DNA of 6,826 nucleotides, taken from contig QNDJ01000085.1 in assembly GCA_003644825.1 (NCBI GenBank), positions 1 through 6,826 of the forward strand, in the 5' to 3' direction. The position numbers were made by a program, and so were the translations under genes. The notes beneath the pieces are model-generated. The model saw nothing but the letters and a program-made list of their open reading frames with translations. It searched no databases and had not been told where the DNA came from. Each line of letters starts with the position of its first letter. Within the stretch, counting starts at the first letter, position 1. The stretch comes from B21-G16 sp003644825 [NCBI: Candidatus Zhuqueibacterota bacterium]. Its GTDB lineage: Bacteria > SM23-31 > B21-G16. Of this stretch, positions 4,939 through 6,826 are shown one piece after another.

Positions 4939-6366
4939 ATGGCCTTACTTCTGCTGTCAGCTAATTTAAAAGCTCAATTGCATCATAGATATATCTTTGT
5001 AGATGATTCAATTATTCAAAAGACATATCAGGTTACCAGAGTTGTTCATCATCCTGAAAAATGTTCACAGAATCCTTTACTGATAGCTGACAAGCCGTGG
5101 GAAGGTGGAATAAATCTCTACGGCACCGTTTTATACGATAATGGAAAATTCAGGATGTGGTACCAGGTTTATAATGGTAAGGCTAAGGATAGAAGTTTTA
5201 ATACATTAATTGCCTATGCTGAAAGTGAAGATGGTATTCACTGGACAAAACCAGACCTTGGATTGGTTGAATTTGAAGGTAATAAAAACAACAACATACT
5301 TATAACCTGTAGAGGCACCAGCTCACTTTACAGCCCGGCAGTGGTAAAAGACCCGAAACCGGAAAATCCAGAAAAAACTTATAAAATGATTTACTGGGAT
5401 AGTATGAGTAAAAAAGAACTGGAAAAGTATGGTCCCAATTTTCCACCGGGGAAAAATGTTCCTGGCTGGCGGGCTATACCGGGAGAAGGATTTTTTACAG
5501 CCTATTCTCCAGATGGAATACACTGGAAGCAATACGGTCACCAGCCGGTTTTTACCTGTGCCTGTGATGCATCTTCTCTTAACTATTTCTCAGATGGAAC
5601 ATTCGTTGTATTTCATAAAATCTCAGTTGCAGAAGATAGGCACTTCCGAATTCTCGGTCAAACCACAAGTAAAGATTTCGTGAACTGGAGTAAACCCTCT
5701 ATAATTCTGGAGCCTGACTGGCATGACCCCTATGGGACTGAGTTTTATGGAATGTCTGGCTTTGAATACTATGGAAATTATTTAGGATTGGTCTGGATTT
5801 ATAATAATGCTCCTGCTGATAAGTCTATGAATATACAAATGGCGGCAAGTAAGGATGGAAAAAACTGGCATAGAGCAGCTGATAGAAAAATCTTTCTTGA
5901 TAGAGGAGAACCCGGAGACTGGGATGGTGGCTCAATAGTTGTTTCCAGCAACCCACTAATATCTCCGCCTGGTTATCCTGATAAGATACTGATTTATTAT
6001 GGTGGTGGCACAACTACCCACGATGATTCCAGGTATAGAGAATGGGGTATTGGTCTTGCAACATTAAGAATTGATGGTTTTGTTTCAATGCGTTCTGGAA
6101 TGTTCAATGGAAAACTGAAGACAAAGCCGATTATTGCTACAGGTTCAAAAATGTTCTGCAACTGTGATATTAAACACGGGTATATAAAAATCGAGTTACT
6201 GGATGAAAACGGAAAATCAATTGCAATGAGTAAGGATATAACAACCTCTGGAACAAGGAAAATTGTTCAGTGGGAAAAATCACCGAAAGTTGACATCGCA
6301 GGAAAGAAAATTACTATCGTCTTCTATATGAAAAAATCTGACCTTTATTCTTTCTGGTTTGAATAA
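4939..6366 (+). CDS. Secreted GH32/GH43-like beta-propeller protein with C-terminal beta-sandwich
   Basis: 475 residues from the first ATG; probably 482 from the ATA at 4918, which restores a full signal peptide (basic R-K, core ALLLLSANL, cut near KAQ). Residues about 18-380 look like a five-bladed propeller of the arabinanase/invertase superfamily: FVDDSII (20-26), PWEGGINLYGTVLYD (53-67), FRMWYQ (71-76), and four blade motifs of S-x-D-G-x-x-W type at 96, 190, 244 and 304, the third degenerate (SKDFVNW). A GDWDGGSIV segment (326-334) and a YGGG turn (354-357) follow. Residues 380-475 form a C-terminal beta domain (DGFVSM, KIELLDENGKSI, SDLYSFWF) typical of large, poorly characterised families in PVC-type bacteria. 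A carbohydrate role is inferred from the fold; catalytic acids cannot be assigned. Six cysteines include two CxCD motifs (207-210 and 407-410). No sugar transporter or other carbohydrate gene adjoins it. Confidence 0.8.
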   Translation: MALLLLSANLKAQLHHRYIFVDDSIIQKTYQVTRVVHHPEKCSQNPLLIADKPWEGGINLYGTVLYDNGKFRMWYQVYNGKAKDRSFNTLIAYAESEDGIHWTKPDLGLVEFEGNKNNNILITCRGTSSLYSPAVVKDPKPENPEKTYKMIYWDSMSKKELEKYGPNFPPGKNVPGWRAIPGEGFFTAYSPDGIHWKQYGHQPVFTCACDASSLNYFSDGTFVVFHKISVAEDRHFRILGQTTSKDFVNWSKPSIILEPDWHDPYGTEFYGMSGFEYYGNYLGLVWIYNNAPADKSMNIQMAASKDGKNWHRAADRKIFLDRGEPGDWDGGSIVVSSNPLISPPGYPDKILIYYGGGTTTHDDSRYREWGIGLATLRIDGFVSMRSGMFNGKLKTKPIIATGSKMFCNCDIKHGYIKIELLDENGKSIAMSKDITTSGTRKIVQWEKSPKVDIAGKKITIVFYMKKSDLYSFWFE

Positions 6367-6466
6367 ATTTTTTATCCCGTTTCCCGAATTTTTGGTTTAA
6401 TTGAGCTGCAACTGATTACGCTAATTTTATTGATTAGATGTTTTGAATTTTTTTCAAAAACAGAGA

Positions 6467-6479
6467 GCTCCGTAGGAGC
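6467..6479. repeat. Short hairpin GCTCC-gta-GGAGC
   Basis: Perfect 5-bp GC-rich stem with a 3-nt loop, conspicuous in AT-rich surroundings and preceded by CAGA and followed by GGAATGGAAT. The form is that of dispersed intergenic hairpins in some environmental bacterial genomes, but membership of a family cannot be shown from one copy. Confidence 0.5.
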
Positions 6480-6506
6480 GGAATGGAATATTAAAAGCTC
6501 AAGAAA

Positions 6507-6553
6507 GATTTCCAGGTTGCTTTTTTCAGCACCAGAATCGAATTCTGGTGCTG
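6507..6553 (+). repeat. 47-nt repeat unit, copy A, with 12-bp palindrome
   Basis: The unit starts GATTTCCAG and ends in a perfect palindrome at 6527-6553: arm CAGCACCAGAAT, loop CGA, arm ATTCTGGTGCTG. It aligns without gaps to copy B 132 nt downstream, with 34 of 47 positions identical by hand count. The palindrome arms share the core ACCAGAAT/ATTCTGGT with copy B. Confidence 0.75.
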
Positions 6554-6626
6554 TAACAATACAATGGTAAGTCATTAAAATGACTGCTTTAAAAGAATTA
6601 TGACCTTATTGTTGAAACCTAAAAAC

Positions 6627-6642
6627 AGTCTCTTTAGAGACT
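6627..6642. repeat. Hairpin AGTCTCT-tt-AGAGACT
   Basis: Perfect inverted repeat with 7-nt arms around TT, in practice a 6-bp stem with a 4-nt loop. Its right arm overlaps the first bases of repeat copy B (GACTTCCAG). No T-run follows, so terminator function is doubtful. Confidence 0.55.
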
Positions 6643-6685
6643 TCCAGAATGTTTTATCCACTACCAGAATTCGATTCTGGTAGTG
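6639..6685 (+). repeat. 47-nt repeat unit, copy B, with 12-bp palindrome
   Basis: Begins GACTTCCAG and ends in the perfect palindrome at 6659-6685: arm CACTACCAGAAT, loop TCG, arm ATTCTGGTAGTG. Relative to copy A, two positions of the left arm differ (GC to CT) and the partner positions in the right arm differ to match, so pairing is preserved. The loop is the reverse complement of copy A's loop. Confidence 0.75.
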
Positions 6686-6687
6686 TT

Positions 6688-6698
6688 ATTCTGGTAGT
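6688..6698 (+). repeat. Extra half-arm ATTCTGGTAGT
   Basis: An exact 11-nt copy of the right arm of the preceding palindrome (6674-6684), repeated with a 14-nt period. It could pair with the left arm of copy B as an alternative stem, or mark a partial duplication of the element. Confidence 0.6.
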
Positions 6699-6777
6699 AG
6701 AAAAAAATAATAAACAACGAATTAAACGAATTTATATTAAAATAACCTTACGCACTTTTTAACTATGTGATTTAAGT

Positions 6778-6783
6778 TATAAT
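6778..6783 (+). promoter_or_regulatory. Isolated consensus -10 box TATAAT
   Basis: A perfect TATAAT lies 6 nt before the palindrome at 6790-6812, so a start of transcription would fall at the first base of that palindrome. No convincing -35 hexamer is present 16-18 nt upstream (the DNA there is T-rich), and any gene would lie beyond the window. Weak candidate. Confidence 0.2.
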
Positions 6784-6789
6784 AATTAA

Positions 6790-6812
6790 ATCTCAAGCTG
6801 GAAGCTTGAGAT
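6790..6812. repeat. Palindrome ATCTCAAGCT-gga-AGCTTGAGAT
   Basis: Perfect 10-bp inverted repeat with a GGA loop near the right window edge, followed by ACGCTGATCCGTGA. It is unrelated in sequence to the other hairpins of the region. It could be the end of a REP-type element continuing outside the window, or an operator or leader hairpin for a downstream gene. No T-tract follows. Confidence 0.6.
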
Positions 6813-6826
6813 ACGCTGATCCGTGA

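Follow-up and report, generated by a model that had tools for sequence, protein, structure and literature searches.

Paired palindromes in a Candidatus Zhuqueibacterota genome are the mirrored ends of a dispersed, non-coding, REP-like repeat

REPINs are described as inverted doublets of REP sequences that form hairpins and are better conserved than REP singlets (PMC3116915). Some published REP dimers are heterodimers whose partners differ in their stems, and in others the spacer contains two stem-loops (PMC3733652). A repeat with several of these traits is found in a window of 6,826 nucleotides (the whole stretch of DNA analysed, contig QNDJ01000085.1) from the genome of B21-G16 sp003644825. 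The two hairpins seen near the end of this window are the mirrored ends of one non-coding repeat of about 163 bp, with its core at 6525-6687. Each end is a half-unit of 65 nt, made up of an outer palindrome, a near-constant gap and an inner AGTC hairpin, and the two half-units face each other. The features of the element and of its surroundings are listed below; A1 is an alignment of 64 half-units, 63 of them distinct, and R1 is the covariance model built on these 64.

6465-6480, + strand: GAGCTCC-GTA-GGAGCG REP, of the type that flanks the intact IS200-type tnpA
6525-6589, + strand: left (L-type) half-unit, with outer palindrome, gap and inner hairpin; R1 match of 79.3 bits, alignment A1
6527-6553, + strand: L outer palindrome, 12-bp arms, loop CGA
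6570-6585, + strand: L inner hairpin, AGTCAT-TAAA-ATGACT
6590-6622, no strand: central spacer separating the half-units, 33 nt here
6623-6687, - strand: right (R-type) half-unit, inverted with respect to L; R1 match of 86.8 bits
6627-6642, - strand: R inner hairpin, AGTCTC-loop-GAGACT
6659-6685, - strand: R outer palindrome, 12-bp arms, loop TCG (CGA when oriented)
6688-6699, + strand: right arm repeated a third time, ATTCTGGTAGTA, immediately beyond the element
6713-6733, + strand: TAIL repeat, AACAACGAATTA.., present within 330 bp after 14 of the 19 elements with enough sequence
6790-6812, - strand: further palindromic repeat, CTCAAGCTTCCAGCTTGAG, by which 10 of 19 elements are followed within 330 bp; GTAG precedes it in L030

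The first-pass annotation had superposed 6507-6553 on 6639-6685 as two direct copies of a 47-nt unit. Its count of 34 identities over 47 nt is correct, and the palindromes that it placed at the ends of the two copies are both present, perfect and 27 nt long, with 12-bp stems and 3-nt loops of CGA (6527-6553) and TCG (6659-6685). Where one arm reads CAGC and its counterpart CACT, the opposite arm carries the matching compensation, again as claimed. The direct 47-nt repeat is nevertheless rejected as the unit, as the similarity upstream of the palindromes is peculiar to this copy: the 24 nt preceding the palindrome cores agree directly at 16 of 24 positions in the window and at only 7 to 12 in each of the other 23 full elements. 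In copies such as those on contigs C10 and C171 the stretch preceding the left palindrome is about 17-18 nt longer, so that the direct resemblance in the window looks like an accident of deletion there. The true relation is an inverted one, between half-units 6525-6589 on the plus strand and 6623-6687 on the minus strand, and the loops are reverse complements, as had been noticed, because the ends of the element are inverted. The idea that one end had been copied from its partner was also rejected: the loops match in 6 of the 24 pairs, against 6.8 expected from random pairing. A stretch resembling ATTCTGGTAGTA, with up to three mismatches, follows 17 of the 24 elements; the copy at 6688-6699 could replace the normal partner of the left arm in pairing.

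The source genome comprises 2,483,551 bases in 493 contigs and is 83.6% complete. A search for further copies, suggested with the original observation, found the pattern ACCAGAATnnnATTCTGGT at 60 places, while a reversed control pattern was found at none. From 30 of the 33 contigs with the palindrome 65 half-units were read, the other three (C49, C235 and C277) giving no half-unit; one half-unit cut by a contig end, on C300, was left out of A1. Model R1 returned 143 matches at E<=0.1, 67 of which were counted (at least 49 bits); the next match scores 39.9 bits, and many of the lower ones are the same palindromes on the opposite strand. These 67 half-units, on 32 contigs, form 24 convergent pairs and leave 19 unpaired. 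Eight of the unpaired lie where the contig stops on the side of the partner, and 11 are true singles, including those on C26 and C41, where there is room for a partner and none is there. None of the 67 overlaps an open reading frame of at least 120 aa. Half-units crowd the ends of contigs, 26 of the 67 lying within 300 bp of one where about 7 would be expected, and the true copy number is therefore probably above that counted in the assembly.

The high-copy, extragenic palindrome is thus joined by a second trait of REPs and REPINs, inverted doublets with a preferred spacing. Across 30 stretches around copies, the window's included, most palindromes are paired and facing, 120-137 nt apart, and the spacer between half-units measures 32-38 nt in 21 of the 24 pairs and 21-22 nt in the remaining three. 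Doublets are also better conserved than singles, with a median score of 80.4 bits for 48 paired half-units and 66.3 bits for 11 single ones (p=0.0019). This contrast weakens once the bias of the model is removed: leaving out two singles that stand outside the model gives p=0.014, and the leave-one-out identity to the type consensus is 0.908 for paired (n=48) against 0.831 for single (n=9) half-units, p=0.029. The suggestion that this is a REP-like element therefore holds for its organisation, which is multi-copy, intergenic and structured. The unpaired GTAG or CGTC tag that adjoins the palindrome in the two published superfamilies is another matter. Next to the palindrome, neither tag is found in any of the 31 L units, and CGTC is found in none of 64 half-units overall; of the 33 R units, 28 have GTAG beside the palindrome, but in 24 CTAC stands on the other side, so that the tag is mostly paired. 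Since the defining unpaired tag is missing, the element is not a member of either the GTAG or the CGTC superfamily.

Within the half-unit the two hairpins are held at a near-constant distance. The inner hairpin, of the form AAGTC-NNN..NNN-GACT, is found near each outer palindrome, and with distances of 10-30 nt eligible, the AAGTC motif begins 19 nt from the 19-nt palindrome core in 53 of the 65 half-units, 20 nt in 10, 18 nt in one and 21 nt in one. The end of the element is thus a double hairpin, a palindrome whose 19-nt core is separated by a gap of 19-20 nt from an AGTC hairpin whose loop reads T[A/G]AA. When oriented by the inner hairpin, all 65 half-units have A as the last base of the outer loop, and in 33 this loop reads CGA. 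L and R units differ by fixed, compensated changes in both stems, GC/GC in L against CT/AG in R in the outer stem, and AT/AT against TC/GA in the inner one.

Compared with REPINs as described in PMC3116915, the element is alike in its inverted palindromic units, preferred spacing, intergenic position, multiple copies and better conserved doublets. It is unlike them in that its ends have two hairpins a near-constant distance apart, no GTAG tag, and no RAYT gene of their own was found. Among the dimers described in PMC3733652, the CGTC-3 homodimers of A. tumefaciens share with it the outer palindromes enclosing two inner stem-loops, and the GTAG-24 heterodimers of P. aeruginosa likewise have partner ends that differ at stem positions; the present element combines both traits, with neither tag unpaired, a comparison made by description rather than by sequence. 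The BIMEs of E. coli, built from y and z REPs, likewise have unit types of alternating orientation within larger mosaic repeats, but the BIME unit is one bulged stem-loop with GTAG, whereas the unit here is 65 nt long with two hairpins. MITEs and the TIR families of TIRtrons are similarly short and non-coding with inverted ends; they differ from the element in that neither a transposase nor a sharp terminus is seen with it.

This last likeness leads to one alternative, in which the half-units would be terminal inverted repeats. The parent transposon, classical or of the tyrosine (TIRtron) type, would have a transposase gene that the assembly lacks, and the element would be its MITE-like deletion derivative. 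The short spacer between inverted ends agrees with it. PMC3733652 describes RAYT genes between long TIRs that have no relation to REPs, and moderately abundant TIR families, and an assembly that is about 84% complete and tends to break at these repeats, as their crowding near contig ends shows, might have lost the gene. Nevertheless, conservation often extends beyond the hairpins (HEAD and TAIL), so that no sharp terminus is seen; the 11 single half-units are more than contig ends explain; and paired half-units lie 21-38 nt apart, with no coding copy seen. We consider this origin unlikely, and the REPIN-like organisation remains the preferred reading.

The hairpins are maintained across the family, as the first-pass annotation had proposed. 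In the 64 half-units of A1, 94.4% of stem cells are paired, so that stems are not commonly unpaired in other copies; column shuffling lowers this share to 86.6%, and sliding the structure lowers it to 53.8% or less. The covariation score of 0.226 exceeds the 0.099 of shuffled alignments (none of 500 shuffles reaches it) and the slid controls, at most 0.104. Other measures of the same test do not stand clearly above shuffles: pairs with a two-sided change number 6, which is reached by 41 of 500 shuffles and is not clearly exceptional, and the 13 further pair types are reached by all 500. The compensatory substitutions are real, but they are mainly one fixed difference between the two end types, plus a few independent paired changes, rather than many events. 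Paired changes inside one type amount to four cells in L and two in R; among them are AGTCAC/GTGACT, in three L units, and ACTAGAAT/ATTCTAGT, in a single palindrome.

Stem mismatches are divided almost equally between G.T (12) and A.C (14), beside 25 others; this count omits L pair 4-28, which is unpaired in 25 of the 31 L units. The absence of a G-U preference favours DNA over RNA as the object of selection. The single-stranded DNA fold of the 163 nt has an energy of -34.3 kcal/mol (z -9.3 against shuffles) and local hairpins; in the RNA fold, with z -8.0, the inner arms are paired to one another rather than locally. A structured RNA, one of the candidates put forward at first, is therefore not favoured, and Rfam gives no match at its gathering thresholds. 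The same observations bear on the possibility that the element is a bidirectional transcription terminator or some other transcribed element. On the outer-to-inner strand GTTT(T) follows each inner hairpin, the half-unit consensus ending in GACTGTTT, and five terminator-like sites are predicted in 6360-6826 where 0.2 would be expected, two of them being the outer palindrome and the inner hairpin of the R half-unit. The inner stems, however, are AT-rich and of 6 bp, with two or three G-C pairs and a short T run. A single gene is in view for 58 half-units; the end that they face is the 3' end in 33 cases and the 5' end in 25, at distances of 22 to more than 2,000 bp. With the lack of a G-U preference and of Rfam matches, a terminator appears quite unlikely, and an element maintained as DNA is preferred.

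Conservation is unevenly distributed along the half-unit. The sequence of the palindrome core is near-fixed, at 97-98% within a type, in contrast to the gap (62-64%) and the two bases that open the loop (57-58%). A core so nearly invariant is what might be expected of a protein-bound site, and REPs and BIMEs are described as protein binding sites (PMC2817692); the repeat might accordingly be a site for a host protein (nucleoid, gyrase or another protein binding for DNA topology) with a chromosomal role and no spreading of its own. Two observations point instead to expansion: the element is dispersed in mosaics with near-tandem copies and other repeat families, and R1 at E<=0.1 finds no match in the five other genomes of the phylum, which are also those of the class, among the best 150 candidates scored in each, a search that weak relatives could escape. 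We regard a purely chromosomal role as very unlikely and retain the reading of a repeat that spreads.

Copies are thus present by the dozen in the source genome, and the question raised earlier about relatives receives a different answer. Beyond the R1 search, patterns combining the palindrome with AAGTC have no match in 59 relatives, and the exact pattern is absent from genome_contigs, a collection that represents 84,980 species by one genome each and from which the window's own and very near genomes may be missing. With a 341-base DNA query across the class, the sole match beyond the source genome is 22 bases in one other genome (G004, E 3.9e-4), lying before the palindrome and outside it. 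On these searches the family is best read as lineage-specific. For PanB, the 80 relatives retained of 362 share 50-57% identity, the best matches being to records of Zixibacteria and Ignavibacteria, which points to an isolated lineage, perhaps close to the FCB group. Viral origin was rejected, as the exact pattern has no match in viral_contigs. Four strings of the element's sequence have no match in the open-access papers searched.

A link to a Y1 or RAYT gene had also been proposed, and it is not supported. The sole intact Y1 gene of the genome, on the 3,375-bp contig C338, encodes 151 aa and matches the NCBIfam IS200/IS605 model at 84.1 bits (cut-off 55), while remaining under the RAYT cut-off (36.1 bits against 80). 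No ACCAGAAT hairpin is found on this contig. A second Y1 match, on C167, is partial and contains a stop; no ACCAGAAT hairpin is found near it in the mapped first 5,000 of 5,060 contig bases. A Y1 gene as direct partner is rejected on these grounds, and no RAYT gene linked to the element was found in the 83.6% complete assembly. The intact gene is instead flanked by a different hairpin, GAGCTCC..GGAGCG. On C338:1-3375 (L060) it lies between pairs of these REPs and of CG[TC]CCC..GGG hairpins on both sides. In C167:1-500 (L006) the Y1-like fragment is interrupted by several GTCAACCG..CGGTTGAC palindromes, and the long frame on this contig runs on into what appears, as an impression from its translation, to be a methyltransferase.

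The GAGCTCC REP is also prevalent beside the element. With up to two mismatches allowed and the same orientation required, 14 of 21 elements have one in the 160 bp upstream, compared with 7% of random windows from the same loci at equal stringency. In 11 of these 14 the nearest one is 76-83 bp away; the other seven elements have none. Three of the 24 elements, with fewer than 150 bases upstream, were left out of this count, and a match on C84 was excluded as belonging to another repeat. Many half-units lie inside long non-coding mosaics with several other palindromic repeats, and the IS200-type transposase of C338 is a possible mobiliser of these larger mosaics.

Some of the mosaics are long non-coding arrays. 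Those at L061 5560-7420 and L063 1-1180 contain near-tandem copies with a length of about 0.6-1 kb and at least five palindromic families, GAGCTCC..GGAGCG, CGCCCC..GGGGC, TCATTGCGAG.., GGTCAGGCAGGGATGCCTGACC and CTCAAGCTGGAAGCTTGAG. By eye, single R and single L half-units join a same-looking foreign repeat at reciprocal breakpoints, in L063 (C15), L057 (C347), L064 (C13) and L073 (C41) on one side and in L232 (C3), L065 (C84) and L061 (C64:6085-6200) on the other. The breakpoints fall near CAGTCTCT, in the arm that comes first in the inner R hairpin, and give the impression that the element and the foreign repeat have swapped halves. C64 has two copies of the foreign repeat without such an exchange, and C186 has a diverged one (72%).

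Taken as a whole, the element is probably a lineage-specific, tag-less, REPIN-like and non-autonomous heterodimeric DNA repeat, which often lies within larger mosaics. Its movement is inferred from these patterns. A hairpin-recognising enzyme, for example of the HUH-type IS200/RAYT group, would read the half-unit as folded single-stranded DNA, the pair would be the unit that spreads, and single half-units would be remnants. The element may travel as a passenger, partly within larger mosaics bearing REPs of the tnpA type. Its L and R ends would have drifted apart through compensated changes that kept their own hairpins and weakened pairing from end to end, which would make the element a poorer target for nucleases that clear palindromes. 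A bolder proposal, which we hold only tentatively, is that such elements form a tag-less class of REPINs, in which the recognised end is the double hairpin with an enzyme of its own and selection holds L and R apart, so that one long cruciform is avoided.

In this isolated bacterial lineage, then, the REP-like heterodimers make up a family whose ends consist of two hairpins and carry neither of the published tags. The presence of its copies at contig ends bears on assembly quality. Its 24 natural pairs allow testing whether heterodimers escape the clearance of perfect inverted repeats.
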